Of a stretch of 64,000 nucleotides of DNA, positions 2,498 to 52,933 are shown in pieces. Position numbers and translations under genes: made by a program. Source of the stretch: an uncultured Oceanisphaera sp. (GTDB taxonomy: Bacteria; Pseudomonadota; Gammaproteobacteria; Enterobacterales; Aeromonadaceae); NCBI RefSeq assembly GCF_947495715.1, contig NZ_CANLZU010000003.1, forward strand, positions 62,001 through 126,000, read 5' to 3'. The notes under the pieces are model-generated. The model saw nothing but the letters and a program-made list of their open reading frames with translations. It had not been told where the DNA came from and did not search any database. Position 1 is the stretch's first letter. Every line of letters begins with the position of its first letter.

Positions 2498-2601
2498 ACA
2501 GGAGTCAGGAGCCGATAAGCAGACCCTCTACGCCAGGGATGGCGTAGTGGAGCCCCCAGGGATGGGTTTATGGCGAGTCTGCATTCGGGCCTGACTGCTG
2601 T
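2498..2601. repeat. Short palindromic repeat, copy A1
   Basis: A 104-bp imperfect palindrome between dctP and the FAD oxidase gene. The outer arms are ACAGGAGTCAGG and CCTGACTGCTGT (11 of 12 pairs). A second pair of arms, GCAGAC and GTCTGC, encloses a hairpin with stem CTACGCC/GGCGTAG and loop AGGGAT (2528-2547), followed by the shared core CCCCCAGGGATGGG. Related copies lie at 9456-9557, 19669-19771 and 47077-47182. Confidence 0.9.
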
Positions 2602-2647
2602 AACCAATTCGGGAAAGGTTATTTACTCCATTTTGCCAAAGGAGAAC

Positions 2648-3778
2648 ATGATGTCGGTTCGCAACCATGCCAGCCGCAACGAGACCGATGTGGCCATCAT
2701 CGGCGGCGGTCTGGTGGGCATGTCCCTGGCCTACGGCCTGTTGCGCCAGGGCAAAACGGTCACCGTCTTCGACGAGGGCGATCAGGCGCTGCGGGCCTCT
2801 CGCGGCAACTTCGGTCTGGTCTGGGTACAGGGCAAGGGTGACACCTGCCCCGAGTATGCCCGGCTGTCCCGGCTGTCGGCCCGGCTCTGGCCGGAGCTTG
2901 CCGCCAACCTGCAGCAGGATACCGGCATCGATATCGAGCTGCAGCAAGGCGGCGGCCTCTATGTCTGCCTCGACCAGCAAAGCCTGCAGCAGCGGGCCGA
3001 CATGCTGGCCAGGATGCAACAGGACGCCGACGGCGACTATCCCTTCGAGGTACTGAACGCCGAGCAGGCCCGGAAAAAGGAACCGGCACTGGGGCCCGAT
3101 ATCGCCGGCGCCACCTGGTCGCCGATGGACGGTCACCTCAACCCGCTGCTGTTGTTCCGGGCCCTGCATCAGGCCTTTGAACTGCACGGCGGAAGCCTGA
3201 TTAACGGCCAGCCGGTGCAGCATATCCAACCCCGGCAGCAGGGCGGTTTCGACATCCGGCTGGATGACAGCCGCTGGCAGGCCCAAAAGGTCGTGCTGGC
3301 CGCCGGACTCGGCAACAAGGCGCTGGCCCCTCAGCTGGGTCTGCATGCGCCGGTTGAGCCCAATCGCGGTCAGGTGCTGATCACCGAGCGACTCAAGCCC
3401 TTTATCAGCTACCCCACCGGCCATGTGCGCCAGACCGGCGAAGGCACTGTGCAACTGGGTGACTCCAAGGAAGACGTTGGCCTGGATACCGGTACCACCG
3501 CCGAGGAGCTCGGCAAGATTGCCGCCCGCGCCATCCGCATGTATCCGGTGCTGGAAAAGGTGCGGCTGATCCGCGCCTGGGGCGCCCTGCGGGTGATGAC
3601 TCCGGACGGTTATCCCATTTATCAGCAGTCGGCCCGCTATCCCGGCGCCTATGTGGTGACCTGCCACAGCGGCGTGACCCTGGGTGCCGTGCATGCCGGC
3701 CCTCTGGTCGACTGGCTGCTTGGCAAAGACACAGATATTTCCCTGGAGGCGTTCAGTGCAGATCGATTCCCCCTTTAA
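2648..3778 (+). CDS. FAD-dependent amino-acid/amine oxidase (DAO family)
   Basis: A 376-residue flavoprotein of the D-amino-acid oxidase fold. The FAD-binding motif VAIIGGGLVGMS is at about residues 15-26, and the C-terminal FAD motif (RAWGALRVMTPDGYPI followed by HSGVTLGAVHAGPL) is present. An open frame continues upstream to 2570, but the start at 2648 (or the adjacent ATG at 2651) follows AAAGGAG and is preferred; the upstream part is repeat sequence. The gene overlaps the next gene by 23 bases. Together with the small [2Fe-2S] protein and the larger NAD/FAD protein it matches the three-subunit dehydrogenase layout known from hydrogen cyanide synthase, opine oxidase and D-hydroxyproline dehydrogenase. 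This would be the catalytic subunit that oxidises a C-N bond. The substrate is unknown. Confidence 0.88.
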   Translation: MMSVRNHASRNETDVAIIGGGLVGMSLAYGLLRQGKTVTVFDEGDQALRASRGNFGLVWVQGKGDTCPEYARLSRLSARLWPELAANLQQDTGIDIELQQGGGLYVCLDQQSLQQRADMLARMQQDADGDYPFEVLNAEQARKKEPALGPDIAGATWSPMDGHLNPLLLFRALHQAFELHGGSLINGQPVQHIQPRQQGGFDIRLDDSRWQAQKVVLAAGLGNKALAPQLGLHAPVEPNRGQVLITERLKPFISYPTGHVRQTGEGTVQLGDSKEDVGLDTGTTAEELGKIAARAIRMYPVLEKVRLIRAWGALRVMTPDGYPIYQQSARYPGAYVVTCHSGVTLGAVHAGPLVDWLLGKDTDISLEAFSADRFPL

Positions 3779-4088
3779 CCGCCTGGCCACCGCCCCTGCC
3801 GGGGCCGTCACCATAGAGATCGACGGCCAGTCCTTTACCGCCCGCGAGGGCGACTCGGTCGCCGCCGCCCTGCTAGCCGCCGGTGCCGTGCCGTCGCGTA
3901 CCACACCGGTGTCAGCCAGCCCCCGCGCACCCTACTGCATGATGGGGGTCTGTTTCGAATGCCTGGTCGAAGTCGATGGCCTGGCCAACGTGCAGGGCTG
4001 CATGGTGCAGGTGACCGACGGCATGCAGGTACGCCGCCAGTCCGGGGCCCGAGAACTGACAGAGGGAGATTTCCATGAAGCAGTATGA
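3756..4088 (+). CDS. Small [2Fe-2S] ferredoxin-like subunit of the FAD dehydrogenase
   Basis: A 110-residue protein starting at GTG 3756, which is preceded by CTGGAGG; no suitable ATG exists in this frame. Four cysteines at about residues 61, 66, 69 and 82 form the C-x4-C-x2-C-x12-C plant-type [2Fe-2S] pattern, after a short ubiquitin-like N-terminal part (EIDGQSFTAREGDSVAAALL). The family is the HcnA/SoxX-like electron-transfer subunit that is always coded beside a DAO-type oxidase and an NAD/FAD protein. It overlaps the upstream gene by 23 bases and the downstream gene by 14, indicating translational coupling of a heterotrimeric complex. Confidence 0.9.
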   Translation: MQIDSPFNRLATAPAGAVTIEIDGQSFTAREGDSVAAALLAAGAVPSRTTPVSASPRAPYCMMGVCFECLVEVDGLANVQGCMVQVTDGMQVRRQSGARELTEGDFHEAV

Positions 4089-5469
4089 TCTGGTGATCGT
4101 CGGTGCCGGTCCGGCGGGCATGGCGGCGGCCACCGCCGCCGCCGAGCAGGGTCTGACCGTCGCCGTGCTGGACGAACAGGCCGCTCCCGGTGGCCAGATA
4201 TACCGCGCCATCTCGGCGCCCGCGCCGCAGGATGAAAAGATACTGGGGCCGGACTACTACCAAGGCCGCCAGCTGCTGGCGCCGTTCAACCAGGCCGGGA
4301 TAGACTACATTCCGTCCGCCACCGTGTGGGAAATCACCCGCGAGCGGGAAGTCCGGCTATCGGCACAAGGCCAGGCCCGCACCCTGCAGGCGGGAAAAAT
4401 ACTGCTGGCCACCGGCGCCCAGGAGCGTCCGGTGCCTTTCCCCGGCTGGCAGCTGCCCGGGGTGATGAGCTGTGGCGCCGCCCAGATCATGCTCAAGACC
4501 AGTGGTCTGACGCCGCCGGCCCCCCTGGTGCTGGCCGGCAGCGGCCCGCTGTTGCTGTTGATCGCATTGCAGCTGCACAGAGCCGAAGTAGAGATTGCCG
4601 CCGTGCTCGACACCACTCCCAAAGAGAACTACCTCAAGGCCGGCCGTCATGTCGGTGGTGCCCTGCGCGGCTGGAGAATGCTGCTCAAGGGGCTCGACTA
4701 CATGGCCCGACTCAAGGGCTCGGGCGTACGCTGCCTGAGCCGGGTGAGCGGGCTGAAGGCCGAAGCCGATGAACACGGCAAGCTGGCCCGAGTGCGCTTC
4801 ACCCACAAGGGCAAAGAGCAGACGCTGAACGCCACCAGCCTGCTGGTACACCAGGGCGTAGTGCCCAATGTGCAACTGAGCCGGGCCATCGGCATCGACC
4901 ACCAGTGGGACCAGCAGCAGTTATGCTGGCGTCCTGTTACCGATAGCTGGGGCGAGACCGATATTTCGGGTATCTTCATCGCCGGTGACGGCGCAGGTAT
5001 CGGTGGCGCCGTGGCCGCCGAACAGGCCGGTCGGCTGGCCGCCTGGCAGATTGCCCATCAGCTGGGCAAACACAGCCCGGGCGATAGAGACAGGCTGGCC
5101 GAGCCGGTGCGCCGCACCCTGGCCCCGACACTGGCGATTCGCCCCTTCCTCGATGTGCTCTACCAGCCCGCCGGAGAGTTTCTCACTCCGGCCGACGAGA
5201 CCCTGGTGTGCCGCTGCGAAGAGGTCACCGCCGGTGACATTCGCCGCTTTGCCCTGCAGGGCTGCACCGGCCCCAACCAGACCAAGGCGTTCAGCCGGGT
5301 CGGCATGGGCCCCTGCCAGGGCCGCATGTGCGGCCTGACGGTGGCGCAGATTATCGCCGATACCCGCCAGACCACCCCGGCCGACGTGGGCTATTACCGT
5401 ATTCGCTCGCCGATCAAGCCGCTGACTCTGCAGGAACTGGCCAGCTTGGGCGATAACGACTCGAAATAA
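4075..5469 (+). CDS. NAD/FAD-binding oxidoreductase subunit with C-terminal iron-sulfur domain
   Basis: A 464-residue pyridine-nucleotide-disulfide-type flavoprotein. The FAD motif VGAGPAG is at about residues 9-15, and the GD motif ([19 protein letters not shown]) is at about 302-320. The C-terminal part has a four-cysteine BFD-like [2Fe-2S] set: CRC near residue 380, then CQGRMC near 410. This matches the HcnB/SoxA-like alpha subunit of three-part amino-acid or opine dehydrogenases. It would pass electrons between the DAO subunit, the ferredoxin subunit and an acceptor. The upstream gene overlaps its start; RidA follows after 76 bases. Confidence 0.9.
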
Positions 5470-5545
5470 GCCAACGAATACCACCCAACGCAACACCGGC
5501 CGCCGAGCCTCAAGTTCGGCGGCTGCAACCTTTTCAGGAGACACC

Positions 5546-5902
5546 ATGACCCTAGTACGCCATCACACCAGCGCGCGCATGAGCCGCACCGTCATTCACA
5601 ACAACACCGTTTACCTCTGCGGCCAGGTGGCCGAAGACCGTACTCAAGGCATTGCCGAGCAGACCCGCACCATGCTGGCCAAGGTCGACACCCTGCTGAA
5701 CGAAGTCGGCAGCGACCGCCGGCATCTGCTGAGCGCCACCATCTACGTGAAGGACATGAGTCTGTTCGCCGAGATGAACCAGGTATGGGACGCCTGGGTG
5801 CCCGCCGGTCACGCCCCGGCCCGCGCCTGTGTGGAAGCCGCCATGGCCAACCCCGAACTGCTGGTTGAAATCTCGGTCATCGCCGCCATTCCCGAAGCCT
5901 GA
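5546..5902 (+). CDS. RidA/YjgF/Rid family enamine/imine deaminase
   Basis: A 118-residue Rid-family protein. The signature PARACVEA with its catalytic arginine is near residues 90-97 and is followed by the usual LLVEISVIA strand. Rid proteins hydrolyse reactive imines or enamines released by flavin oxidases and PLP enzymes, which suits its place after a three-part amine dehydrogenase. The start follows TCAGGAGACACC. The stop TGA at 5900-5902 shares its last base with the first base of a long palindromic element, so the gene's 3' boundary coincides with the element's end. Confidence 0.93.
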
Positions 5903-6235
5903 TACTAAAAAATTAAATAACTGATCTATTTGGTTGCTCTGAAAAGGTCGGACAAATGGCCAGCTCCGCCGACACGCCGTGAATACCTCCATGTAGGCTC
6001 CGCCGCGCCATCCTTGGCGCGGAGGGTCGGCGGAGCAGATCCCTTCGTCCTCCTTGAAGCTCCGGCGTTGCCTGTAGGCGCCATTCTACGGGCAACTCGG
6101 TACTCCTGAAGAGGCAGCAGAGATCGACTACCACGACCGTGAAATGCCAGGGACGGCATTTCCGAGCCCCCATGGATGGGTTCATGGCGTGTCGTGGGAG
6201 GCGGCTGTGTTGCCTCTAAACTCGGGATTGAAAAT
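5902..6235. repeat. Long composite palindromic element, copy R1
   Basis: It starts with a terminal sequence ATACTAAAAAATTAAATAAC followed by TGATCTATTTGG, which matches copies R2, R4 and R5. Inside are a GTCGGCGGAG-armed hairpin with the core stem CCGCGCC/GGCGCGG around loop ATCCTT, a middle hairpin, and a module with the core stem GAAATGCC/GGCATTTC. The right end degenerates after GTTGCCTCTAAACTCGGGATTG. It fills most of the spacer 5903-6344. Between it and the terminator at 6292 I see nothing else. Confidence 0.85.
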
Positions 6236-6291
6236 AATCAGATGTTTATTCACATTGGTATGATTCCCTGCTAAGAATCGGCCCCTGGCAT

Positions 6292-6316
6292 AAAAAAACC
6301 GGCCCGAGTGGGCCGG
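6292..6316 (-). terminator. Rho-independent terminator of the cupin operon
   Basis: On the minus strand the stem GGCCC/GGGCC, extended by flanking CC/GG pairs, is followed by a run of seven T. It lies 29 bases beyond the cupin stop and ends the long minus-strand operon. Confidence 0.85.
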
Positions 6317-6344
6317 CAAAGTAGTGCCTGGAGACGTACTTCCA

Positions 6345-6695
6345 TCAGGCCAGTCCGTGCAACTCCTTCCAGTTGCCCGGGTGAACCACATAACCGAACA
6401 GGGCATGGCCGCCATACACCAGTTCGGTGCCTTCGGGGATCCACAGCATCTGGCCGGGGCGCACTTCGTGCTTCTTGCCGTTGGCGGTCAGTTCGAAGCA
6501 GCCTTCAATCACGAACACCACTTCGTCATACAGCACGGTCCAGGCCACTTCGGCCCCTTCCCAGCGGGCGAAGCCCACCCCGATGTTCGGGGAAACCTCG
6601 GGGCTCAGCGCCCGGGCCACATAGGCGGCACCCGGCGGGCCACCACGAAAGCTGAACTCCAGCTCCTTGCTGTCGATCACTCTGACTTCACTCAT
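6345..6695 (-). CDS. Small cupin-domain protein
   Basis: A 116-residue single-cupin protein with the beta-barrel sequence LYDEVVFVIEGCFELTANG near the middle and VRPGQMLWIPEGTEL after it; it resembles EutQ-like cupins. The start at 6695 overlaps the stop of the preceding flavin oxidase in an ATGA arrangement and follows GGAGCGAATT. A longer frame from 6716 lies inside that gene and has no better ribosome site. Typical cupin metal histidines are mostly replaced, so an enzyme role is doubtful; a binding or stabilising role is possible. It is the last gene of the minus-strand catabolic operon. Confidence 0.85.
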   Translation of the reverse strand: MSEVRVIDSKELEFSFRGGPPGAAYVARALSPEVSPNIGVGFARWEGAEVAWTVLYDEVVFVIEGCFELTANGKKHEVRPGQMLWIPEGTELVYGGHALFGYVVHPGNWKELHGLA

Positions 6696-8008: not shown

Positions 8009-8018
8009 CTTCTGTTCC

Positions 8019-9392: not shown

Positions 9393-9455
9393 CTTGTTTC
9401 TCCCCACTACCCTGTTTACTGCTAAATAACGGTTGTTACACCGCACTCCGTCAGA

Positions 9456-9557
9456 CAGAGGTCAGGTTGCGATAAGCAGACCCTCCGCGTCAGGGACGAC
9501 GCGGCGGAGCCCCCATGGATGGGTTGATGGCGTGTCTGCGTTCGTTTCTGACCTCTG
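9456..9557. repeat. Short palindromic repeat, copy A2
   Basis: A 102-bp palindrome with outer arms CAGAGGTCAG and CTGACCTCTG (perfect 10 bp). An inner hairpin has stem CCGCGTC/GACGCGG and loop AGGGAC (9485-9504), followed by the shared core CCCCCATGGATGGG. It lies inside the minus-strand operon, between the aldehyde dehydrogenase and the rubredoxin-reductase gene, so a transcript crossing it would carry this structure. Confidence 0.9.
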
Positions 9558-9585
9558 GCGTGCGATGAAGATCGCTATTTATTAC

Positions 9586-11013: not shown

Positions 11014-11016
11014 TGA

Positions 11017-14244: not shown

Positions 14245-14254
14245 CTGCTCTTGA

Positions 14255-19641: not shown

Positions 19642-19668
19642 TCGGCTTTAAAAGCTGTCGCATGTCGA

Positions 19669-19771
19669 ACAGTAGCCAGGAGCCAATAGCAGACCCTCTG
19701 CGCCAGGGACGGCGCAGTGGAGCCCCCAGGGAGGGGGTTACGGCGTGTCTGCGTTTGGCCCTGACTGCTGT
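19669..19771. repeat. Short palindromic repeat, copy A3
   Basis: A 103-bp palindrome with outer arms ACAGTAGCCAGG and CCTGACTGCTGT, and inner hairpin stem CTGCGCC/GGCGCAG with loop AGGGAC (19698-19717), followed by a core with CCCCCAGGGAGGGG. It sits between greB and tex. Confidence 0.9.
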
Positions 19772-23641: not shown

Positions 23642-23746
23642 AGAACCGATCTATTGGGTCGTTTTACAACAATGTGCAACCGCAGGACAAAGGGCCGGCT
23701 CCGTCTGCGGGCGGCTGTGAACATAAGGTCCGCCCCAGGACGCCTT

Positions 23747-24109
23747 ATACCAATCCCAGTAATGATCTGGTCATGTTGAGGCCCCAGATCAGAGGAAACA
23801 CAGCCGCCCCCCTCGACACGCCATAAACCCATCCATGGGGGCTCGGAAATGCCGTCCATGGCATTTCACGGTCGTGGGAGCCGTTCTCTGTTGCCTCTTC
23901 TGGAACACCGAGTTTCCTGTAGACGGCGCCAACAGGCGACTCAGCGGCATCAAGGAGGGCAAAGGGATCAGCTCCAGCGACCATCACATGACAAGGATGT
24001 CATGTGCTGAGCGTCACATGGATGTGCTTGCAGCGGGTCGGTGGGGCAGACCCTTTGTCCGACGTTTATACAGAAATGAAATAGATCATTTTTTTAATGT
24101 AATTGGTAT
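23747..24109. repeat. Long composite palindromic element, copy R2
   Basis: A 363-bp element bounded by ATACCAATCCCA at the left and TAATTGGTAT at the right, an imperfect inverted pair. It contains the GAGGAAACA/TGTTGCCTC-armed module with core stem GAAATGCC/GGCATTTC around loop GTCCAT, a middle hairpin, and a second module with core stem CACATGAC/GTCATGTG around AAGGAT. Its last base, 24109, is also the last base of the lysR-like gene's TAA stop. Confidence 0.9.
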
Positions 24110-24996
24110 TAGCGGGCAAACTGCTCCAGCAGCCAGTCTTTCAGGATCATGGCCGCCCGGCTGAGGGGCTGACGCCTGGGATGTACCAGATAGTAACTTT
24201 TATTCAGGGGCAGCCACAGCCCAAATGGCTCAATCAACTCCCCTCGCTCCAGCTCTTCCCGCACCAGCAGCTGGTTGCTCAGCACCACTCCCTGCCCACG
24301 CTTGGCCGCATCTATCGCCAGCAATGTCTGGTCGAAATACAAGGCGGGTATCCGCTTTCTCGCCTCGGGGTCTATGGTCGTAAACCGGCTCAGCCAGTCA
24401 TTCCAGAAGGGATAGGGCGTGGCCACAATCAGGGTCACATTGCCGAGCTGGTCCGGATGCTGCAGTGCGGTGGCATCCCGATATGAAGGAGCACAAAACA
24501 ACCGCACCGCATCGTCGAAGACTTCCTGTACATGGAGCGCCGGATCCCGCCCATCAAAATGACGAACCGCCAGATCAACCGCTTCCCGCTGAAAATCAAC
24601 CGGATGGTTGGAGGCATTGATATGGACCTCGATGTCGGGATATCGGCGCATGAAATCCCCCAGGCGGGGACCCAGCCATTTGGCCGCCAGGGTTTGCGAC
24701 AAGGATAACGACACCGCATCCGATGAAGGTTCCCGGCAGGCCTCGCTGGCGGCACTGATCTGTTCCAGCGCCGGTGCGATACGGCTGAAATAGCTCATGC
24801 CGCGCTCGGTCACCTGCAACTGGCGCACCAGTCGTACAAACAGCGGGTATCCCAGCCATTGTTCCAGTTTCTGCACCTGCTGCGAGACCGCGCCCGGGGT
24901 GAGGTGCAACTCCCTGGCGGCCAGCTTGAAGCTGGCATGCCGAACCGAGGCCTCGAAGGCCACCAGAGCCCGCAATGGCGGCATGGGTTTATGCAT
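24109..24996 (-). CDS. LysR-family transcriptional regulator
   Basis: A 295-residue regulator with the GcvA-like N terminus (LRALVAFEASVRHASFKLAARELHLTPGAVSQQVQKLEQWLGYPLF, residues 8-53) and an effector-binding domain behind it. It is divergent from an old-yellow-enzyme gene across 247 bases that contain a long inverted repeat (25061-25091), so it probably controls that gene. Its TAA stop shares its final A with the end of repeat element R2. Confidence 0.9.
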   Translation of the reverse strand: MHKPMPPLRALVAFEASVRHASFKLAARELHLTPGAVSQQVQKLEQWLGYPLFVRLVRQLQVTERGMSYFSRIAPALEQISAASEACREPSSDAVSLSLSQTLAAKWLGPRLGDFMRRYPDIEVHINASNHPVDFQREAVDLAVRHFDGRDPALHVQEVFDDAVRLFCAPSYRDATALQHPDQLGNVTLIVATPYPFWNDWLSRFTTIDPEARKRIPALYFDQTLLAIDAAKRGQGVVLSNQLLVREELERGELIEPFGLWLPLNKSYYLVHPRRQPLSRAAMILKDWLLEQFAR

Positions 24997-31060: not shown

Positions 31061-31391
31061 GAGGCAACACAGCCGCCTCCCGCGACACGCTTCGAACACA
31101 TCCATGTGACGCTCGGCAAATGCCATCTGACCGCCAGGGACGGTGGGAATGCCGGAACGGCAGGAGCATTTTCCGGCCCTGGTATTTCACGGTCGTGGGA
31201 GGCAATCTCTGTTGCCTCTTCTGATGCACCGAGCTGCCTACAGACAGCGCCAACAGGCGACTCTGCAGCATCAAGGAGGACCAAGGGATCTGCTCCGCCG
31301 ACCATCACATGGCAAGGATGCCATGTGATGAGCGTCACATGGATGTGCTTGAGCGAGTCGGCGGAGCGGGCCCTTTGTCCGGGATCGGTAT
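31061..31391. repeat. Long composite palindromic element, copy R3
   Basis: It has arms GAGGCAACACAGCCGCCTCC and GGGAGGCAATCTCTGTTGCC, a middle hairpin, and a GTCGGCGGAG module with core stem CACATGGC/GCCATGTG around AAGGAT. The first module carries an unusual core with GGAATGCCGGAACGGCAGG, also seen in R4. The ATACCAAT ends are degraded, leaving GGTATA at the right. It occupies most of the 525-bp spacer 30980-31504. The flanks (30997-31050, 31392-31445) carry further degraded repeat pieces and no gene. Confidence 0.8.
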
Positions 31392-36297: not shown

Positions 36298-37875
36298 ATG
36301 AAACCTCCTGAATCCCGAACTTCCGAACGACGCCTCGTCGCCAGCCTCAGCGGCGGCTTTCTGCTCCTCTTCGTGGCACTCGCCCTCTTCGACCTGCAAC
36401 AAATGACTCACTGGATCAATCTCAGCTTTGCCTGGGTGGTCGATCTGTTTGGTCCTCTGTGGCAGGTCTGGATGCTGGCCAACCTGGTCATCGCCCTGGT
36501 GCTGGGCTTCACCCGTTACGGCGATATTCGTCTGGGGGGCAATGTACGCCCCGACAGTTCGACCTTTCGCTGGCTGGCGGTGATCATGTGTACCCTGCTG
36601 GCCGGTGGCGGCGTCTTCTGGTCGGCGGCCGAACCCATGTATCACTATGTGACCACGCCGCCGATCTTCGCGGATAGCGAGTCCGGCGTGTCTGCGGTAT
36701 CGGCGGCGCTGGCCCAGAGCTTCATGCACTGGGGCTTTCTGGCATGGGCCGCGCTCGGCACACTGTCGGCGGTGGTGGTGGTGTATGCCCATTATCACAA
36801 GGGGCTGGCCATGCGGCCGCGTACCCTGCTTTACCCGCTGATGGGCGAACGCATCGAAACCCACTGGCTGGGTACCCTGGCCGACGTGGTCTCCATTATC
36901 GCGGTGGCCGCAGGCACCATAGGCCCCATCGGCTTCCTGGCTACCCAGCTGGGCTTCAGCTTCGAAGCGCTGTTGGGCTGGGAAAATAATTACACCTTGC
37001 AGTTAGCCATACTGGGCGGCCTGGTCGCGATTTATACCCTGTCCGCCTCTACCGGCATCGAAAAAGGCATTCAGTGGCTGTCCAGCGCCAACGTGGTGCT
37101 GGCGGTGATATTACTGGCCGTCATACTGCTGGCTGGCCCCGGCAACTTCGTCGTCGACGCCTTCCTCAACGGCATGGGGGTGTATCTGCAGGACTTCATG
37201 CCGATGGCGCTGAACCGGCAGGATGATGCCTGGCTGGGTTGGTGGACCGTGTTCTTCTGGGGCTGGTTCATCGGTTACGGCCCCATGATGGCGCTGTTTA
37301 TCGCCCGTATCTCCCGCGGCCGCACCCTGCGCGAGCTGGTGATGGCCGTCGCCATCATGGCCCCGCTGGTCACCAACTTCTGGTTTGCCAGCATCGGCGG
37401 TGCCGGCATCTTCTATGAGCAGGCTCTGTCTGGGGTGGTTTCCGGCCCGCTGCAGGACGGTGGCTTGCCGGCCGCGCTGCTGGCGGTCACCCAGCAACTG
37501 CCCCTGGCGGCGCTGATGGTGCCGGCCTTCCTGGTACTGACGGTGATCTTCGTGGCCACCACCGGTGATTCCATGGCCTATTCCATCGCCATGGCCATCA
37601 GCGGCGACCATACACCACGTACTCGGGATCGCATCTTCTGGGCCCTGACCATGGGGGTGGTGGCGGCCGTGCTGCTGCGAATGGGTGAAGGCGGCATCAA
37701 TGCGCTGCAGTCTTTCATCGTGATCACCGCGGCTCCGGTATCGCTGCTGCTATTGCCGGTGCTATGGACCGGGCCCAAGATGGCTCACGCCATGGCCTAC
37801 GAGCAGGGTATCGTTACCCACAAACTGCGCAGCGAAGAGCTGACCAAACCGGCGTCTTCATACCAAACAGATTAA
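36298..37875 (+). CDS. BCCT-family transporter, second copy
   Basis: A 525-residue membrane protein of the BCCT family: LAGGGVFWSAAEPMYHY near residue 105 and WWTVFFWGWFIGYGPMMALFIARISRGRTLRE near 310-341. It differs clearly from the copy at 12523, and there are no catabolic genes beside it, so an osmoprotectant uptake role is possible. The last codons (YQTD and the stop) come from the end of a palindromic element: TACCAAACAGATTAA overlaps the element's ATACCAAA terminus. The original C terminus has therefore probably been replaced. The ATG at 36298 lacks a strong ribosome site. Confidence 0.92.
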   Translation: MKPPESRTSERRLVASLSGGFLLLFVALALFDLQQMTHWINLSFAWVVDLFGPLWQVWMLANLVIALVLGFTRYGDIRLGGNVRPDSSTFRWLAVIMCTLLAGGGVFWSAAEPMYHYVTTPPIFADSESGVSAVSAALAQSFMHWGFLAWAALGTLSAVVVVYAHYHKGLAMRPRTLLYPLMGERIETHWLGTLADVVSIIAVAAGTIGPIGFLATQLGFSFEALLGWENNYTLQLAILGGLVAIYTLSASTGIEKGIQWLSSANVVLAVILLAVILLAGPGNFVVDAFLNGMGVYLQDFMPMALNRQDDAWLGWWTVFFWGWFIGYGPMMALFIARISRGRTLRELVMAVAIMAPLVTNFWFASIGGAGIFYEQALSGVVSGPLQDGGLPAALLAVTQQLPLAALMVPAFLVLTVIFVATTGDSMAYSIAMAISGDHTPRTRDRIFWALTMGVVAAVLLRMGEGGINALQSFIVITAAPVSLLLLPVLWTGPKMAHAMAYEQGIVTHKLRSEELTKPASSYQTD

Positions 37876-38332
37876 ATAACTGACCTATTTGGCTGTTCTG
37901 CAAAGGTCGGAGAAAGGGCCAGCTCCGCCGACACGCCGTGAATACCTCCATGTAGGCTCCGCCGCGCCATCCCTGGCGCGGAGGGTCGGCGGAGCAGATC
38001 CCTTTATCCTCCCTGATGCCAGGGAGTTGCCTGTTTGCGCCGTCTACAGACAGCTCGGTGCTCGAGAAGAGGCAACAGAGATCGACTGCCACGACCGTGA
38101 AATGCCATGGCCGGAAAATGCTCCTGCCGTTCCGGCATTCCCGCCATCCCTGGCGATCAGACGGCATTTCCCGAGCCCTCAGGGGGCGAGCTTGTCTCGC
38201 CGTGACGAGCGGTTGCAGTCTGACCGAACATCCAGTGAATGTTCGCAGTAGGCTGCAACGGTGAGTGTCATTTACCAGTGGCGTGTCGTGGGAGGCGGCT
38301 GTGTTGCCTCTGAGCTCCGTTCTAATTGGTAT
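37860..38332. repeat. Long composite palindromic element, copy R4
   Basis: A 473-bp element with ends ATACCAAACAG at the left and TAATTGGTAT at the right. It contains a GTCGGCGGAG module with core stem CCGCGCC/GGCGCGG around ATCCCT, a middle hairpin, and a terminal module that holds an extra insert of about 150 bases (GGCGAGCTTGTCTCGCC and neighbouring hairpins). It spans the whole gap between the BCCT stop and the stop of the convergent membrane-fusion gene. Its left end supplies the BCCT stop codon, and its right-end base is part of the TGA of the other gene. Confidence 0.9.
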
Positions 38333-39537
38333 CAGTCGACGGGGTTCGGAGCTATTCGCGCCCCGTCGGCCAGCTCCGGCGGGGGATAGAGCACCAGTTG
38401 CTGCCCCTCGTTCAGCCCGGCCAGTATCTGCGCCTGCCGGCCGTTGTCGTGCCCGACTATGACCGGGGTCAGCCGGGCCCGGTTGCCTTGCACGACCAAT
38501 ACCGCCCATTGCTCCCCTTCCCGAAACAGGGCGCTGGACGGCGCCATCAGCGCATTATCGTCTTGCCACACAATAATCCGCACTTCCACCCGATAGCCGT
38601 GGCCCAGGCCGCGCCGGGCTGCGGGCTCACCATCGAAGCGGATCAGCACATTGACCCGCTGCTCTTCTACTCCCAGGGCGGAAAACTTGGTGAAACCGCG
38701 TGGCTCAATCCGTTCCACCACCCCGGCCAGTGCTTGCGGCCCGCCCCAGTGGTCGATCAACACCCGGTTGCCGGGCGCCACCCGCACCGCCTCGGCAGAA
38801 GGCAGTTCGACCAGCACCTCCAGATCCCGTTCGGGATCGCCAATCTCCATGATCGGCGTGCCGGCAGCTACCACGGTTTCGCTCTGCACCAGCCGCTGCA
38901 ACACCCGCCCCGACACCGGCGCCAGCAGCGGAATACCGACCTCCCCGCTACCGGGTGTTCCCTGCCCCAGTTGTGCCCGGGCGGCGGCCAGCTCGGCCTG
39001 GCGCTGCACCACGGCGGCGTTGGCCGCTTTCAGCGTGGCGGTGGCCGCCTGGGCCGATTGCCGTGCCTGATCCCGCACCGAGGCGGATACATGTCCTTGC
39101 CGATACAGCCGCTGATTACGCACCCACTCGGCATCGGCCAGTTGACTGGCGGCCTCGACACGGTTCACGTCGGCCCGGGCGAACTGAAGTGCCGCCTCCG
39201 CCGCCTTTACCGCCGCCTGGGCCTGCTCGCGCGCGCGAGCATCCAGCAGTGAGACCAGTGCCGGCACCAGCCGGGCCAGCTCGGTTTCGCCCGCCGCCAC
39301 CGCATCGCCCGCCTCCAGCGTCACCCGCAACAAGCGCCCGGCCACCGGGGCGCTGACCATATAGCGCTGGCGCACCCGGGTACGCGCCTCTTCATCGATG
39401 GTGACCATCATGCTGCCCCGCCGCACCAGGCCGGTGTCTACCGGAATAGACCGGGGCCAGAAGGCATAGCCGAACAAGCCCGCCAGTAACAGCGTAACGA
39501 CGAGCAAGATTCCCTTGCGTGACTGTCTCGATGCCAT
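38332..39537 (-). CDS. Periplasmic adaptor (membrane fusion protein) of an ABC exporter
   Basis: A 401-residue HlyD/MacA-like protein: an N-terminal membrane anchor (GILLVVTLLLAGLFGYAFWP, residues 8-27), a lipoyl-type half-motif VSAPVAGRLLRVTLEAGDAVAAGE near 60, a long alanine-rich coiled coil (about 95-190), the second lipoyl half LLAPVSGRVLQRLVQSETVVAAGTP, and a beta-barrel domain. The true start is at 39537, 4 bases after the permease stop; the open frame further upstream is a shadow. It should bridge the ABC permease to the cell envelope. The TGA stop shares its last base with repeat R4. Confidence 0.9.
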   Translation of the reverse strand: MASRQSRKGILLVVTLLLAGLFGYAFWPRSIPVDTGLVRRGSMMVTIDEEARTRVRQRYMVSAPVAGRLLRVTLEAGDAVAAGETELARLVPALVSLLDARAREQAQAAVKAAEAALQFARADVNRVEAASQLADAEWVRNQRLYRQGHVSASVRDQARQSAQAATATLKAANAAVVQRQAELAAARAQLGQGTPGSGEVGIPLLAPVSGRVLQRLVQSETVVAAGTPIMEIGDPERDLEVLVELPSAEAVRVAPGNRVLIDHWGGPQALAGVVERIEPRGFTKFSALGVEEQRVNVLIRFDGEPAARRGLGHGYRVEVRIIVWQDDNALMAPSSALFREGEQWAVLVVQGNRARLTPVIVGHDNGRQAQILAGLNEGQQLVLYPPPELADGARIAPNPVD

Positions 39538-41896: not shown

Positions 41897-41906
41897 GGCG
41901 CTCCCC

Positions 41907-42632: not shown

Positions 42633-42776
42633 CGGGCTACTCGTGCATGGCGGCGGTGTAACAAAAGCCTAAGTGCTATCCCGTTACGTCGCCAGAAGGT
42701 GCCGCCAGAACGCGCTAAGCTTGAATGGTTCCCAACCGCCAATCCGGCGCCCCATCAACAACAGGAAACCAGTGCC

Positions 42777-45175: not shown

Positions 45176-45323
45176 CCGCTCATTCATTCATCAAGTGGTG
45201 CCAATTAGAACTCAGTTGTACACTCGATGGGCGAATGAGGGTGGCTTTCACAACCAACTCTGTTCTATCTTGTCTGCAGTTATTGCCCATTCACACTCTT
45301 CCTCATACAACTGGAGTACACGC

Positions 45324-46408: not shown

Positions 46409-46409
46409 C

Positions 46410-47054: not shown

Positions 47055-47076
47055 CGTGCAAGTAGCCAGGATGCCC

Positions 47077-47182
47077 GACAGGAGTCAGCTCCGAACACAG
47101 ACACGCCGTAAACCCATCCATGGGGGCTCCGCCGCGCCATCCATGGCGCGGAGGGTCTGTTTATCGGATTCTGACTCCTGTC
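47077..47182. repeat. Short palindromic repeat, copy A4, inside the yjf operon
   Basis: A 106-bp palindrome with perfect 12-base outer arms GACAGGAGTCAG and CTGACTCCTGTC. An inner hairpin has stem CCGCGCC/GGCGCGG with loop ATCCAT, next to the CCCATCCATGGG core. It separates yjfK from yjfL within an otherwise tightly packed operon and is in the opposite orientation to copies A1-A3. Confidence 0.92.
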
Positions 47183-47224
47183 TCACACTCGATGCTGAAT
47201 ACTGAACCAAACGTAAGGAAAGCT

Positions 47225-47641: not shown

Positions 47642-47650
47642 GGAGGCCTT

Positions 47651-48265
47651 ATGAAACGCTCCAAACGTCAGTTGCTGAGCCGCATGGCCGATCGCATCGG
47701 CAAACCGGTGGGTGCCGCCATTGCCGGCTCGGTGATGCTCAGTGCCTGCGGCCAGAACGAAACCGAAGTGCAGGTTTATCAATCGCAGGATGATTGTCGC
47801 AACAGCAACCCCGAACTGGCCGAACAATGCCGGGCCGCCTATCAGCAGGCGCTGGCCGAGTCGGCAGAAACAGCGCCCAAGTACGACAGCCGCAACGATT
47901 GTGAAGCCGACTTCGGCGGCGGCAGTTGCACCCCCTATCAATATCAGGGTAACAACTGGTTCATGCCGGCGATGGCGGGCTTCATGTTCGGCCGCCTGCT
48001 GGACGGCAACCGCTACTCTCATACTCCCGTTTATACCTCCCGCAACCCCTACTCGCCCTATTATGGCCAGTGGAGCACCGCCAACGGCTACCGACTGGGC
48101 AAGGCCGGCTACGGCAAGCGAATATCGGTCGGCAAAGAGGCGCTGGCGCCCAAGCCCAAGGTGACCCGCACCATTTCCCGTGGCGGCTTCGGCTCGACCG
48201 CCCAGGCCAAGAGCAGCTGGAAAAGCAGCAAAAGTACTAGCCGCTCCCGAGGCTGGGGCGGCTGA
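47651..48265 (+). CDS. yjfM: YjfM/YgiB family protein (DUF1190), probable lipoprotein
   Basis: A 204-residue protein with a basic N terminus, a hydrophobic segment and a possible lipobox LSAC (Cys33). The mature part has Cys-containing repeats (DDCRNSNPELAEQC, NDCEADFGGGSC) and a Ser/Gly/Arg-rich tail. This is the DUF1190 pattern of YgiB/YjfM. It shares one base with the yjfC start (stop TGA, then ATG). The function is unknown. Confidence 0.88.
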   Translation: MKRSKRQLLSRMADRIGKPVGAAIAGSVMLSACGQNETEVQVYQSQDDCRNSNPELAEQCRAAYQQALAESAETAPKYDSRNDCEADFGGGSCTPYQYQGNNWFMPAMAGFMFGRLLDGNRYSHTPVYTSRNPYSPYYGQWSTANGYRLGKAGYGKRISVGKEALAPKPKVTRTISRGGFGSTAQAKSSWKSSKSTSRSRGWGG

Positions 48266-49431
48266 TGCTGCGACTCAGCCACCGGGAACGCCCGCACTGG
48301 CGCACTCAGGCCGAACAGCTGGGGTTTGGTTTTCATACCATGTATGGCGAGCCCTACTGGGACGAAACCGCCTATTACCAGTTCACCCTGGCGCAGATAG
48401 AACGGGATATCGAAGATCCCACCGCCGAGCTGCACCAGATGTGCCTGGAAGTGGTAGACAAGGTGGTGCGTGACGAACAATGGCTACGGCGTTTTTGCAT
48501 CCCCGAGGCCCAATGGCAGGGAATACATGACTCCTGGCAGCGGCGCGATCCCAGCCTCTATTCCCGGCTGGATCTGGCCTATAACGGCCGGGGACCCGCC
48601 AAGCTGCTCGAAAACAACGCCGACACCCCCACCAGCCTGTTTGAAACCGCCTTCTGGCAATGGCTGTGGCTGGAAGACAATGTGGATGCCGGCCGGCTGC
48701 GCCGGGACGCGGATCAGTTCAACCTGCTGCAGGAACGGCTGGTGGCCCGTTTTGCGAGCATGGCAGCCCGTTATCCGGGCCAGCGGCTGCATTTTTCCTG
48801 CTGCAAGGAATCGATCGAAGACAGGGGCACGGTGCAGTACCTGGAAGACTGTGCCCAGGAGGCGGGGCTGGACACCGCCTTCGTGCATATCGAAGACATC
48901 GGTCTGGGTGAAGGCGGCTGGCTGACCGATACCGACAGCCATACCATCGACTGGATGTTCAAGCTGTACCCCTGGGAGTTCATGTTCCGGGAACAGTATG
49001 CGGACCACCTGGTGACCAGCCGGGTCAACTGGCTGGAGCCGTTATGGAAGTCGGTGCTGTCCAACAAGGCGCTGCTGCCCCTGCTCTGGCAGCATTTTCC
49101 CGACCATCCCAACCTGTTGCCCGCTTATTTCGGCGACGACCCCAAACGCAGCGCGTTGCAGGAATATGTGCAAAAACCGCTGTTTTCCCGCGAAGGCGCC
49201 AACATCAGTGTGGTGCGTCACGGCAAGCTGGTTGCGGAAGTGGACGGCCCCTATGGCGAGGAAGGCTTTATCGTGCAGGCCTGGCATCCGCTGCCGAAAT
49301 TCGGCGACAACCATGCCCTGATCGGTAGCTGGCTGGTGGACGATCAACCCGCCGGCATCGCGGTACGGGAAGATACCGGCCTCATCACCCAGGATCTGTC
49401 CCGCTATCTGCCCCACATCATTCTCGGTTAG
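48265..49431 (+). CDS. yjfC: Glutathionylspermidine-synthase-like ATP-grasp protein YjfC
   Basis: A 388-residue protein of the preATP-grasp/ATP-grasp synthase family, similar to the C-terminal synthetase domain of GspS. It has YDLAYNG-like RLDLAYNGRGPAKLLENNADTPTSL near residues 105-130 and KLYPWEFMFREQYADHL near 234. ILPAYF-like NLLPAYFGDDPK and REGANISVV near the C terminus are typical of the glycine-rich ATP clamp. It would form an amide bond on an amine or peptide, but the true substrate of YjfC/YgiC proteins is not established. It is the last gene of the yjf operon. Confidence 0.9.
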   Translation: MLRLSHRERPHWRTQAEQLGFGFHTMYGEPYWDETAYYQFTLAQIERDIEDPTAELHQMCLEVVDKVVRDEQWLRRFCIPEAQWQGIHDSWQRRDPSLYSRLDLAYNGRGPAKLLENNADTPTSLFETAFWQWLWLEDNVDAGRLRRDADQFNLLQERLVARFASMAARYPGQRLHFSCCKESIEDRGTVQYLEDCAQEAGLDTAFVHIEDIGLGEGGWLTDTDSHTIDWMFKLYPWEFMFREQYADHLVTSRVNWLEPLWKSVLSNKALLPLLWQHFPDHPNLLPAYFGDDPKRSALQEYVQKPLFSREGANISVVRHGKLVAEVDGPYGEEGFIVQAWHPLPKFGDNHALIGSWLVDDQPAGIAVREDTGLITQDLSRYLPHIILG

Positions 49432-49438
49432 GTGGCTA

Positions 49439-49796
49439 ATACCAATCCCAGTAATGATCTGGTCATATAAGGCCTCAGCTCAGAGGCAACACAGCCGCCT
49501 CCCTCGACACGCCATAAACCCATCCATGGGGGCTCGGAAATGCCGTCCCTGGCATTTCACGATCGTGGGAGTCAATCTCTGTTGCCTCTTCTGGAACACC
49601 GAGTTGCCCGCAGGTGGCGCCTACAGGCAACGCCGGAGCTTCAAGGAGGACGAAGGGATCTGCTCAGCCGACCATCCGCGCCACGGATGGCGTGGCCGAG
49701 CCTCCAGGGAGGGATTCACGGCGAGTCGGGGAGCGGGCCCTTTGTTCGGCTTTTATACAAAAATGGAATAGATCATTTGTTTAGTGGGATTGGTAT
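49439..49796. repeat. Long composite palindromic element, copy R5
   Basis: A 358-bp element with clean ends: ATACCAATCCCA at the left and TGGGATTGGTAT at the right, a perfect 12-base inverted pair. It has the GAGGCAACA/TGTTGCCTC module with core stem GAAATGCC/GGCATTTC, a middle hairpin GTTGCC/GGCAAC, and a second module with the core CGCC-ACGGAT-GGCG. It is the best-preserved copy in the window. Confidence 0.93.
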
Positions 49797-49818
49797 AACT
49801 TTCCTCTGAGCTACAGGC

Positions 49819-51174
49819 CTACAGCGTCAAAATACGCTGATATTCGCCGATTTCGACTCGATAAGAGGTGGTGCGGCGCAGGTGATCGCGCATCGCTTCC
49901 AGTGCCTCCGGCTCACCATGAATCAGCTGTATGGGGGTGTCGGCGGCCAGCGCCGATGCCGCCAGCCATTGCTGCAACTCCACGTAATCGGCGTGGCCCG
50001 ACAGCCCGTGCAGCATCTCGATACGGGCATGGTTGGGCACCCAGTCGCCGTGAATTTTCACCGCTTCCGTTCCCTGATACAGCTTGGCGCCCCGGGTTCC
50101 CGCTACCTGAAAACCGGTCAGTAACAGCGTGGTTCTGTGGTCGGACAGCAACCGCCTCATATGGTGAAGAATACGGCCGCCGGTGACCATGCCGCTGCCG
50201 GCGATGATAATGTGAGGAGAGGCTTCATCGGCCAGTGCCTGAGAGTGCTCGACGCTGCGGGTATAGGTAATCGCCTGATTCATCTGCTGAAAATCGCCAT
50301 GACTCAGCTTGTGCTGGTCGGCAAAGCGCGCATAGATACCGCTGACATCGATGGCCATGGGGCTGTCGAGAAACACCTTCATTTTGGGAATGCGCTCTTC
50401 CAGCATCAGCCGGGTCAGCAGATACTGCATGGTCTGCGCCCGGCCAACGGCAAAGCTCGGGATCAGCATGACACCGCCGCCGGCCACCGTGTCGTTGACC
50501 AGCTCGGCCAGCCGCTCGAACGGGTCCACGTCCTGGTGGCGGCGATCGCCGTAGGTGGACTCCAGCAACAGCAAATCCAGCTCGGGTAACGGCTGCGGGG
50601 CGCGCATGAACAGATCGTTGGGTCGGCCTACATCACCGGAAAAGCCGACCCGCTTGCCTTCGGCCTCGAGGATCAGGCTGCCGGCCCCGAGAATATGACC
50701 GGCAGGCTGCAGATGTACCCGTATCGAACCGATATCCAGCCTGTGACCAAACTCCAGCGGTTTGAGCAACGACAGGCTCTTCTCGGCCGTTTTTCGGTCA
50801 TACAGGGGTTCGGGGCGCTCATGCTTGCTCAACTTGTGATGCTCGTAGAACTTGGCGTCTTCTTCGTGAATATGGCCGCTATCCGGCAGCAAAACTCCGC
50901 AAAGGGTCTGAGTGGCCGGATGACAATACCCGGGCCCGCGATAACCCTGCCGGTACAGCACCGGAAGAAAGCCGGAATGATCCAGATGGGCGTGGGTCAG
51001 CACGATGGCATCGAGCTTGCGCATATCCAGCGGCAGCGGCTCCCGGTTGCGCTCGCGCAGCCACTTGTAGCCCTGATACAGGCCGCAATCCACCAGGATT
51101 TGAGTATCGCCGCTGCTGACCAGAAATTTGGAGCCGGTGACCGTTTGGGTCGCCCCCAGAAAGGTAATCTTCAT
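49819..51174 (-). CDS. Beta-CASP metallo-beta-lactamase-fold nuclease
   Basis: A 451-residue protein. Metallo-beta-lactamase motifs: VDCGLYQG near 29, THAHLDHSG near 60 (HxHxDH), PAGHILGAG near 157, GFSGDVGR near 178. The beta-CASP domain follows, with LESTYGDRRH, PSFAVGRAQ, a GSGMVTGGRILHH segment near 330 and LSGHADYVEL near 395. Length and order match the bacterial CPSF73-like RNA nucleases. It probably cleaves RNA in the cytosol using two zinc ions. Confidence 0.93.
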   Translation of the reverse strand: MKITFLGATQTVTGSKFLVSSGDTQILVDCGLYQGYKWLRERNREPLPLDMRKLDAIVLTHAHLDHSGFLPVLYRQGYRGPGYCHPATQTLCGVLLPDSGHIHEEDAKFYEHHKLSKHERPEPLYDRKTAEKSLSLLKPLEFGHRLDIGSIRVHLQPAGHILGAGSLILEAEGKRVGFSGDVGRPNDLFMRAPQPLPELDLLLLESTYGDRRHQDVDPFERLAELVNDTVAGGGVMLIPSFAVGRAQTMQYLLTRLMLEERIPKMKVFLDSPMAIDVSGIYARFADQHKLSHGDFQQMNQAITYTRSVEHSQALADEASPHIIIAGSGMVTGGRILHHMRRLLSDHRTTLLLTGFQVAGTRGAKLYQGTEAVKIHGDWVPNHARIEMLHGLSGHADYVELQQWLAASALAADTPIQLIHGEPEALEAMRDHLRRTTSYRVEIGEYQRILTL

Positions 51175-51353
51175 TCGGGTTCCCTCGTGTTACTGATGCC
51201 GAACCGGGGCAGGCAGTGTCAGCCTGTCGCCACCTTGTTCTATCAGTATTCACCAGTTTGCCAGCCTTTGCCGACAGCCCAGCCATCCAAACGCCATACC
51301 TGGTTGAAGCACACTAAGCTTGATGAGTTCCCCATCGATAAAGGAGTAACAAG

Positions 51354-51734
51354 ATGAACGGCAACCCCGTGATATGGTTTGAACTCTATGTAGCGGATAT
51401 GGCTCGGGCACGTAAATTCTACGAGGCAGTACTGAGCGTAACGCTGGAACAGGCAGAAGAAAGGGAAGCAGACTGGCCGGAAATGTGGATGTTTCCGGGC
51501 GAAGAAAAGAATAATGGCGCCTGCGGTGCCCTGGTGCAGATGAACGGCATGTCACCCGGAGGCGGCGGCACCCTGGTGTATTTTCGCTGCGATGACTGCG
51601 CCGAACTGGCCCACAAAGTCGTTGCCAACGGCGGCCAGCTGGCGCGCGACAAATTCGCCATCGGCCCCTACGGCTTTATCGCCCTGGCCGTCGATACCGA
51701 AGGCAACATGATCGGCCTGCACTCCATGAAGTAG
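51354..51734 (+). CDS. VOC-superfamily (glyoxalase-like) protein
   Basis: A 126-residue protein with two beta-alpha-beta units: WFELYVADMARARKFYEAVL at the N terminus and GQLARDKFAIGPYGFIALAVDTEGNMIGLHS at the C terminus. This is the usual small VOC layout, which serves lyases, dioxygenases or binding proteins. The ribosome site AAAGGAGTAACAAG is strong. The function is unknown. The cyoE terminator lies beyond its 3' end. Confidence 0.88.
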   Translation: MNGNPVIWFELYVADMARARKFYEAVLSVTLEQAEEREADWPEMWMFPGEEKNNGACGALVQMNGMSPGGGGTLVYFRCDDCAELAHKVVANGGQLARDKFAIGPYGFIALAVDTEGNMIGLHSMK

Positions 51735-51739
51735 AAGCA

Positions 51740-51777
51740 GAAAAAAGACCGGAGTGGCAGTGTTTGCTGCTCCGGTC
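51740..51777 (-). terminator. Terminator of the cyo operon (after cyoE)
   Basis: On the minus strand the stem GACCGGAG/CTCCGGTC, with further GC pairs inside, is followed by TTTTTT. It lies between the convergent cyoE and VOC genes. Confidence 0.85.
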
Positions 51778-51809
51778 AAAGGGAGAGACGGTATTCGATA
51801 ACGGACGGC

Positions 51810-52712
51810 TCAGCGATTCAGTACCAGCAAGGCATCGGGCACCGCGCGAAAGTCCAGCGCCATGGTCACGCTGATGGCGGTGATGGTGATGATGGACAGC
51901 ACAAACACCCGCCGGGCCCAACCTTGTTCCTCCAGGCCACGGCGATAGCCGTTGAAGGCCATCACCAGCCACCACAGACTGGTGGCACAAGACACCGCCA
52001 TGAAGGTCAGTCCGGTATAGCCACCCAGCGGCAACAGCACGGTCACCAGACAGAATACCGCGATATACAGCACTATCTGGCGCTTGGCCTTGGCGATGCC
52101 CTCGGCCACCGGCAACACAGGAATATTGGCCGCCGCGTAATCGTCGTAACGAAAAATGGCGATGGCGTAGGAGTGCGGCATCTGCCACAGGCTGAACATC
52201 AGCAGCAAAATGGCGGCTCCCGCGTCGAACTGGCCGGAGACGGCGCAGTAACCCACCACCGGCGGCACGGCACCGGACAGGCTGCCGACCAGGGTGCCGT
52301 AGACGGACTTGCGCTTCATCCACAGGCTGTACAAACCCACATACACCAGGTAACCGAAGACGGCAAAACCCACCGCCACGCCATTGGTACGTACCGTCAG
52401 CAGGCCGAAGCCCAGCAGGCCCAGCAACAGGCCGTAGATCAGTGCCGTGCGCCCGGACAGCTCGCCGGTGACCGTTACCCGGTTGCAGGTACGGCGCATG
52501 CGCGCGTCTATGTCACGGTCGATGCAGTTGTTGATGGCGCAGCCGGAGGCCACCACCAGCGACAGGCCGAGCACGGTGGCCCACATCAGCGAGCAGTCGA
52601 TGTCGCCACGAGAAGCCAGAAAAAAGCCCCCCGCCACCGAGATCAAGTTACCCATGATAATGCCCGGCTTAATCACTTGGAGATAAGCTACCTTGAGGTA
52701 AGGCCGAATCAT
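51810..52712 (-). CDS. cyoE: Protohaem IX farnesyltransferase CyoE
   Basis: A 300-residue UbiA-family membrane enzyme with the prenyl-diphosphate motif [15 protein letters not shown] near residue 62 and a second acidic loop near 187 ([16 protein letters not shown]). It converts haem B to haem O for cytochrome bo3. It is in the order of the cyo operon, but 248 bases containing a palindromic repeat separate it from cyoD. The repeat may affect how much of the transcript reaches cyoE. Confidence 0.96.
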
Positions 52713-52774
52713 AAAAGCCCCTTGGGATCTAACATCCCGTTATGCTTGCAGAAAGTAGACTGTTCGTGCAGATG

Positions 52775-52933
52775 AAATCGGGCAAAGGGCCCACTCCGCC
52801 GACACGTGATAATCTGCGTCCAAGAGGAGGCCAAAAGGATCTGCTCCTCCGACCGTGACATGCCATGGATGGCATATCCGAGCCCCCAGGGATGGGTTTA
52901 CGGCGTGTCGGCGGAGCTGACCTTTTGGCCTCT
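52775..52933. repeat. Palindromic repeat between cyoD and cyoE
   Basis: The main unit, 52823-52933, has arms AGAGGAGGCCAAAAGG and CCTTTTGGCCTCT. Inside it is a core with stem ATGCC/GGCAT around ATGGAT, and CCCCCAGGGATGGG. The left part (52775-52820) is a broken half of a GGGCCC...TCCGCCGACACG arm. It lies within the cyo operon. Confidence 0.85.

Follow-up and report, generated by a model that had tools for sequence, protein, structure and literature searches.

A 64-kb stretch of the genome of an uncultured Oceanisphaera sp. (contig NZ_CANLZU010000003.1, positions 62,001 to 126,000; G+C content 60%), hereafter the window, contains 15 copies of a ~68-nt double-hairpin unit, the core, in ten intergenic elements, five with two cores and five with one (Table 1). 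The two-hairpin fold with its pair of ANGGAY loops has been kept and has spread, and the first of the two helices shows a strand preference. On balance, we favour the view that the cores form a mobile, Gammaproteobacteria-wide family of paired putative CsrA-docking hairpins at gene 3′ ends. A first-pass annotation of the window had reported at least ten spacer elements with compensating stem changes around a fixed loop. Ten such elements are indeed present, every stem that it named was found at, or within ~10 nt of, the place assigned to it, and the cores at 6128, 49663 and 52844, absent from its list, can be added. Thirteen of the cores are intact and two are split by a nested insert.

Read on the strand that presents GGA in the loops, the core consists of a closing stem, helix 1 (~7–8 bp) with the hexaloop ANGGAY, and helix 2, which is made of 3 bp, a 5-nt bulge and a further 3 bp and carries a second ANGGAY-like loop. 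A core model trained on the 13 intact window cores, which it recovers by construction, also picked up the two interrupted ones and gave at least 150 matches in the whole genome (3.65 Mb, 82 contigs). At E 0.01, the window and 113 other stretches of this genome hold 231 matches (117 + 114), at least one of which, a weak match within a gene (L122), is probably false. Loop statistics are based on 207 of these cores, 24 having been dropped by length, and on 189 of 212 cores from other loci (13 dropped by length and 10 for a weak helix 1). The loop-to-loop distance is mostly 23 nt (129/207 own-genome cores), and GGA is constant while the sequences of both helices vary. When loops at the other loci were located by pairing, without requiring GGA, the first contained GGA in 181/189 cores and the complete ANGGAY in 173/189, and the second in 174/183 and 157/183, respectively. 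The second base of the loop is nearly free (81 G, 52 T, 47 A and 27 C among the 207 own-genome cores, for which GG was required).

Helix 1 exists in 34 distinct versions among 176 own-genome cores and in 78 among 189 cores from other loci, far from two or three fixed variants copied whole. For the window cores, RNAalifold predicts 21 base pairs, 12 of which show at least one two-sided compensatory change. We tested covariation with our own R-scape-like implementation, using the G statistic with average product correction and a null in which parsimony substitutions are re-placed on a FastTree tree; loops were anchored on GGA and not on pairing. Among 167 distinct cores from other loci, the top eight of 1,596 column pairs are all helix-1 or helix-2 base pairs, each scoring above all 95,760 null values, and ranks nine and ten are closing-stem pairs (E 0.03 and 0.17). 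A run anchored on pairing yielded the same set of top eight pairs. In the own genome (158 cores), three true pairs exceeded the null and a fourth had E=0.07; three pairs of neighbouring columns also had E 0.03–0.07. The significant covariation that the first-pass annotation had anticipated is thus borne out.

On the GGA strand, G·U cells outnumber A·C cells in helix 1 by 23:3 in the own genome and by 23:2 at other loci; counted by distinct stems, the ratios are 12:2 (p=0.013) and 14:2 (p=0.004). This excess suggests that the thing kept is the folded GGA strand, either as RNA or as single-stranded DNA, and together with covariation it supports the earlier proposal that the fold itself is maintained. 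Mutational strand bias is a poor explanation of the asymmetry, because single cores between tandem genes lie in sense (17) about as often as in antisense (15). Neutral template-switch repair (quasi-palindrome correction) could in principle keep the arms complementary, since palindrome arms can template each other, with the loops conserved because the copies are recent. We regard this explanation as highly improbable: DNA repair would not be expected to favour G·U over A·C, GGA is fixed even though the second base of the loop is free, and a single loop shared by 78 distinct stems from different genera indicates that the loop has outlived the stems.

RNA folding of four window elements on both strands gave z-scores of −4.5 to −6.6 relative to dinucleotide shuffles, with none of 200 shuffles as good in any of the eight folds; on the GGA strand of 37910–38010, hairpin 2 as drawn is missing from the best RNA fold. 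Among 383 distinct cores, the GGA strand is the stabler one in 206 and its complement in 127, a difference which may stem from loop parameters and is given no weight here. Outer stems of single elements scored above the 95th percentile of mismatched arms in 22/50 cases, so that complementarity beyond the core holds for only a part of them.

The loop in its helix context, C-ANGGAY-G, is identical to the consensus CANGGAYG of RsmA and closely resembles the Escherichia coli CsrA consensus sequences obtained by systematic evolution of ligands by exponential enrichment (RUACARGGAUGU) and by cross-linking and immunoprecipitation (AUGGAUG), as given in PMC7705225. The fixed loop of the first-pass annotation is therefore confirmed, but it had been taken on both strands, and its one-strand CsrA/RsmA consensus was missed. 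Alignment and covariation place ANGGA in hairpin loops at two sites, in line with the two or more such sites looked for in a CsrA-binding RNA. CsrA as the ligand would best explain a loop in which the second base is free but GGA, with its neighbours, is fixed. In the model that we propose, each core would act as a ~68-nt RNA unit, in which a closing stem encloses two adjacent hairpins; their C-ANGGAY-G hexaloops would dock one CsrA/RsmA dimer, two sites to one dimer. Copies just downstream of genes would be read into mRNA 3′ tails, where they could titrate CsrA, tether it to those mRNAs, or both. Most likely, the cores would provide transcripts that run past the 3′ ends of genes with predicted CsrA-docking tails. 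We infer that the cores are transcribed and bound by CsrA, that they may influence gene expression, and that CsrA is the cause of loop conservation.

Several observations weigh against this reading. Helix 2 has no strand preference (four G·U and five A·C cells in the own genome). In DNA, G·T is likewise milder than A·C, so the helix-1 asymmetry cannot separate RNA from single-stranded DNA. The second loop ends in G instead of Y in 54/207 own-genome cores. The best single RNA fold exposes two unpaired ANGGAY loops in just 159 of the 383 distinct cores, one in 149 and none in 75. The random orientation of single cores between tandem genes means that transcripts of the upstream gene would contain many of them as the non-GGA strand; the antisense core at 9472 is nonetheless well kept. 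Ysr224, the nearest Rfam family by score, is annotated on the non-GGA strand as one small RNA (sRNA). Finally, the association of cores with csrA is not significant over all 369 class genomes (p=0.06; see below), and five genomes with cores have no csrA match (G048, G109, G140, G235 and G381), four of them being <90% complete and G235 98% complete.

Gene context was assessed with a home-made hexamer gene caller, with the gaps of one 64-kb window as background. Only 4 of 135 elements lie in divergent (promoter) gaps, compared to 9 of the 36 window gaps of at least 60 nt (p=1.3e−4); three singles and three composites at stretch edges, as well as L122, were omitted from the count. The location of the elements at gene 3′ ends, as well as the very stable folding of both strands, would also suit a bidirectional 3′-end hairpin, a terminator or exonuclease barrier like many repeats of the repetitive extragenic palindrome (REP) type, in which the loop would be incidental. 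In its favour, several relatives have, in place of the core at sites 2515, 9472 and 52850, a plain GC hairpin that looks like an intrinsic terminator. A plain barrier, however, needs no single loop sequence in both hairpins with variable stems and would not give strand asymmetry, and by eye, uncounted, no regular U-tract is seen after the elements at the orthologous sites compared here. We therefore consider this explanation unlikely as the whole account.

Within the genus, orthologous gaps hold the same core, a core in the opposite orientation, a plain GC hairpin, or nothing. At 9472, four relatives (G006, G009, G013 and G016) have an orthologue in the same orientation, G021 has an oppositely oriented core, and eight others a remnant, a plain hairpin or nothing. 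The site of the 47097 core is occupied in the same orientation in G008 and in the opposite one in G010, G013, G016 and G021, with no core in four others; that of the 49437..49798 composite has no core in G016 and G013. At 52844, the core in the same orientation is intact in G016, G015, G005 and G001 and carries a nested insert in G013 and G006, whereas it is reversed in G009 and degenerate in G011. This core (52850), although antisense to its neighbours, has kept both GGA loops in five species; helix 1 has been wholly replaced in one of them, two have T-A where one helix-2 pair was C-G, and in the closing stem paired switches are found next to an unpaired position. The helix-1 change at 9472 between the window and G006 is also compensated. 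In all eight orthologue comparisons, elements are at least as identical as their flanks, to within about a percentage point (at 9472, 95% against 84–85% in G006), which is no unbiased estimate of constraint because the loci were picked for having a core.

In the own genome, the cores are arranged in 142 elements, namely 53 single cores and 89 composites, in which a minus-strand core is followed by a plus-strand one, the two facing outward. The second core begins 90–93 nt past the end of the first in 83/89 composites. Outward-facing cores imply that a transcript crossing the element from either side has one core in the GGA sense. Among 48 composites (the other 41, without two intact standard-length cores, being excluded), only one has the same coarse helix-1 stem type in both cores, compared to a mean of 14.7 and a minimum of 4 in 10,000 shuffles. 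In the remaining 47/48, the two cores would not anneal along helix 1; avoidance of a perfect DNA palindrome would equally yield differing stems.

By their ends and target duplications, many composites are ~360-bp IS5-like miniature inverted-repeat transposable elements (MITEs). A search for TACCAA and TTGGTA with at most one mismatch at each end detected the terminal inverted repeats TACCAAT...ATTGGTA at both ends of 50/89 composites and not in 39; 32 of the 50 span 340–379 bp. The flanking 3-mers are identical in 37/50, with the pattern TNA (shuffled mean 12.2, maximum 22). From these TNA duplications, we presume an assignment of the MITE to the IS5/IS1031 insertion sequences. In 17 of the 37, the duplication coincides exactly with the stop codon of an adjacent gene, compared to ~8.8 expected if insertion could use any TNA in the gap; duplication at a stop codon leaves the stop codon, and thereby the gene end, preserved. 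According to our proposal, many copies would arrive in this MITE, with its two outward cores and non-annealing helix-1 stems. More tentatively, transposition would have spread predicted CsrA receptors, with stop-codon insertion sparing the genes, to build a distributed CsrA sponge of hundreds of mRNA 3′ ends across Gammaproteobacteria; we put this fuller scenario forward as possible but doubtful. The parent insertion sequence was not found among six PF01609 loci and the assembled contigs of the own genome, nor does the genome contain TACCAA/TTGGTA pairs 0.9–2.5 kb apart with matching flanking 3-mers.

Selfish DNA could equally account for the many copies, the MITEs with their target duplications, the indifferent orientation to tandem genes and the fixed outward order (89 own-genome composites and 49/56 close pairs elsewhere). 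A transposase or another DNA enzyme would then bind the single strand in its folded form and contact the GGA loop, as happens in REPs with their REP-associated tyrosine transposase (RAYT) or attC sites with the integrase; the strand asymmetry, too, fits single-stranded DNA. Yet the own genome has no RAYT beside the cores. The MITE ends and TNA duplications would imply that a double-strand DDE transposase has the ends, and not the cores, as its substrate, 39/53 single cores have no MITE-type ends within 420 nt, and some singles persist at orthologous sites with compensating changes. We accordingly give selfish DNA by itself a low probability. A role in mobility at the DNA level and a barrier role at 3′ ends may coexist with docking of CsrA.

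Two kinds of nested insert were seen. One, at window 31136, contains a small hairpin, CCGCC-AGGGAC-GGTGG, with a CANGGAYG loop of its own; the other, in + cores (window ~38115–38300), contains GAACATCCAGTGAATGTTC, or a close variant of this palindrome, together with longer arms, and is also found at L069, L100, L111, L116, L339, L353 and L361. Cores with nested inserts (window 31130–31200 and 38086–38204) recur in the genome as 113–121-nt variants.

Long pieces of the window and other own-genome stretches are up to 90–91% identical to Oceanisphaera arctica and O. litoralis; identity is lower in other Oceanisphaera, reaches 88% in Zobellella, and is 94% for one piece in an unclassified gammaproteobacterial metagenome-assembled genome (MAG). 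Cores were matched at E ≤0.001 in 29/41 relatives, including all 23 genomes searched in the GTDB genus group, with between 2 and at least 124 matches per genome in that group. In a sample of the class, 68/369 gammaproteobacterial genomes and 60/272 genera have a match at E ≤1e−5; in a sample of the phylum, 28/398 genomes match, and every one of the 28 belongs to the same order or class, the share of that sample outside the class being unstated. Outward pairs at the other loci (49/56 close pairs with the order minus-plus) include those of Pseudomonas, Halopseudomonas, Lysobacter, Marinobacterium, Arenimonas and Rheinheimera, a partial list of genera taken from 80 loci among at least 101 stretches in a pattern scan of named genomes. 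The flanks of eleven outward pairs that we compared differ between lineages. At L271, L280, L299 and L261 (Lysobacter and unclassified MAGs), composites lie inside a larger palindrome with other ends (AGCATCGCCCGGCTGTGCGC in L280), which suggests a separate carrier per lineage. One 82-nt core query had no match in plasmids, phages and E. coli genomes, and spread by those carriers is thus not supported. In G581 (L394, 3288–4652), six 227-nt units stand in tandem, with a single core apiece in a constant orientation; among the arrangements seen, this array is the one most like a multi-site sponge. Its units also hold a GTAGGAGC...GCCGCGA palindrome, by eye like a Pseudomonas REP.

The own genome has one csrA gene. 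In the class sample, csrA was found in 63/68 genomes with cores and 250/301 without (p=0.06); for well-assembled genomes, the numbers are 55/56 and 225/258 (p=0.015), the overlap between the two listings having been read by eye. The co-occurrence is suggestive only, and genomes without csrA may differ from the rest in other respects.

Few post-transcriptional systems of Gammaproteobacteria have been studied as well as Csr/Rsm. If the cores bind CsrA, the regulator would be titrated from hundreds of scattered 3′-end sites besides the few sponge sRNAs, and the number of sites would differ strongly between species of one genus group. Transposition would then have seeded the binding sites of a global regulator genome-wide, suggesting how such sites spread. 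The family would further exemplify strand-specific selection on structure among bacterial repeats.

Table 1. Core-bearing elements of the window and their target duplications
Feature	Position	Strand	Details
Single element	2498..2600	+	core 2515-2582, GGA strand +; loops AGGGAT and AGGGAT; long outer stem
MITE (composite)	5900..6263	.	cores 5968-6035 (-), 6128-6196 (+)
TGA duplication of 5900..6263 MITE	5900-5902 and 6261-6263		left copy is the stop codon of open reading frame (ORF) 5546-5902
Single element	9455..9557	+	core 9472-9539
Single element	19668..19770	+	core 19685-19752; counterpart in L248 (Zobellella maritima)
MITE (composite)	23745..24111	.	cores 23812-23880 (-), 23972-24042 (+)
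TTA duplication of 23745..24111 MITE			right copy is the stop codon of ORF 24109-24996 (-)
Composite, MITE ends not recognised	31081..31362	.	cores 31081-31201 (-, nested insert in hairpin 1), 31293-31362 (+)
MITE (composite)	37858..38334	.	cores 37927-37994 (-), 38086-38204 (+, nested insert)
TCA duplication of 37858..38334 MITE			right copy is the stop codon of the minus-strand gene ending at 38332
Single element	47079..47181	-	core 47097-47164, GGA strand -
MITE (composite), TAA duplication	49437..49798	.	cores 49503-49571 (-), 49663-49730 (+)
Single element	52824..52932	+	core 52844-52912

No Rfam family matched the window at its gathering threshold, and 18 other loci gave only tmRNA and Alpha_RBS. 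A tandem array of GTGAGGAGTGAGGA-type units at window 59011–59159 caused several false Rfam matches, and a match of RsmW in the window (E=4.3) was treated as chance. By score, the nearest family is Ysr224 (RF02770), a Yersinia sRNA, whose model matches the complement of the core (window E=1.8e−4). It has 82 own-genome matches at E ≤1, and among eight loci weak matches occur in Serratia (E=0.006) and Lysobacter (E=0.06). Five of 14 control genomes match as well, indicating that weak Ysr224 matches are partly chance, and the best own-genome score, 36.8 bits compared to a gathering threshold of 70, led us to reject membership. Ysr224 is listed among the 20 most prevalent bacterial sRNAs when every copy is counted (PMC9029176, table 3); these counts may partly represent the core repeat family, which might explain the frequent matches of the Ysr224 model in genome surveys.

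The first-pass annotation had named REP-type elements moved by RAYTs as the closest known parallel. REPs are high-copy palindromes of 20–40 bp downstream of genes, often in opposite-facing pairs, and carry a GTAG or CGTC tag, the GTAG type having a RAYT (PMC3733652, PMC2817692); CGTC REPs, which may end in TGTC, are single hairpins with 8–9-bp stems and 4–5-nt loops (PMC3733652). The cores are similarly high-copy, downstream of genes and often in opposite-facing pairs, and their consensus has GTGTC at the 3′ end. Unlike REPs, the core is a 68-nt double hairpin without a conserved GTAG and with no RAYT nearby, and it occurs with MITE ends and TNA duplications, so that the parallel does not hold. 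Neither of the two Y1_Tnp matches in the own genome has a core within ~1.5 kb, and one of them adjoins, by eye, a TnpB-like ORF; membership in the REP/RAYT system was rejected. In their form, the composites recall QMITE1 and QMITE2 of Coxiella, MITEs of which some are transcribed as sRNAs and of which QMITE1 is 300–400 bp long with 2–3-nt direct repeats (PMC5896051). Unlike for the core family, the main text of that paper never mentions CsrA, and paired CsrA-type loops were not seen in it. Among the papers listed, no title or beginning of an abstract describes a family of repeats or MITEs in which CsrA-type loops are paired.

TwoAYGGAY (RF01731), listed for human gut, Gammaproteobacteria and Clostridiales (PMC2864571), likewise has two hairpins with AYGGAY-type loops. 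It was predicted to be a CsrA ligand by motif matching, two hairpins being a CsrA signature, and CsrA sites are generally paired, CsrA being a homodimer (PMC4333381). The cores differ from it in score, with an own-genome best of 28.3 against a gathering threshold of 43, by which membership was rejected, and with no match of its model at E ≤1 in the three best loci. Moreover, TwoAYGGAY is not described as high-copy repeats or MITEs in the accounts of it in PMC2864571 and PMC4333381. CsrB, CsrC and RsmX/Y/Z each offer CsrA dimers a number of hairpin loops with GGA (PMC4383904, PMC4333381). Unlike these dedicated sRNA genes, the family described here has its putative docking sites scattered over hundreds of loci.

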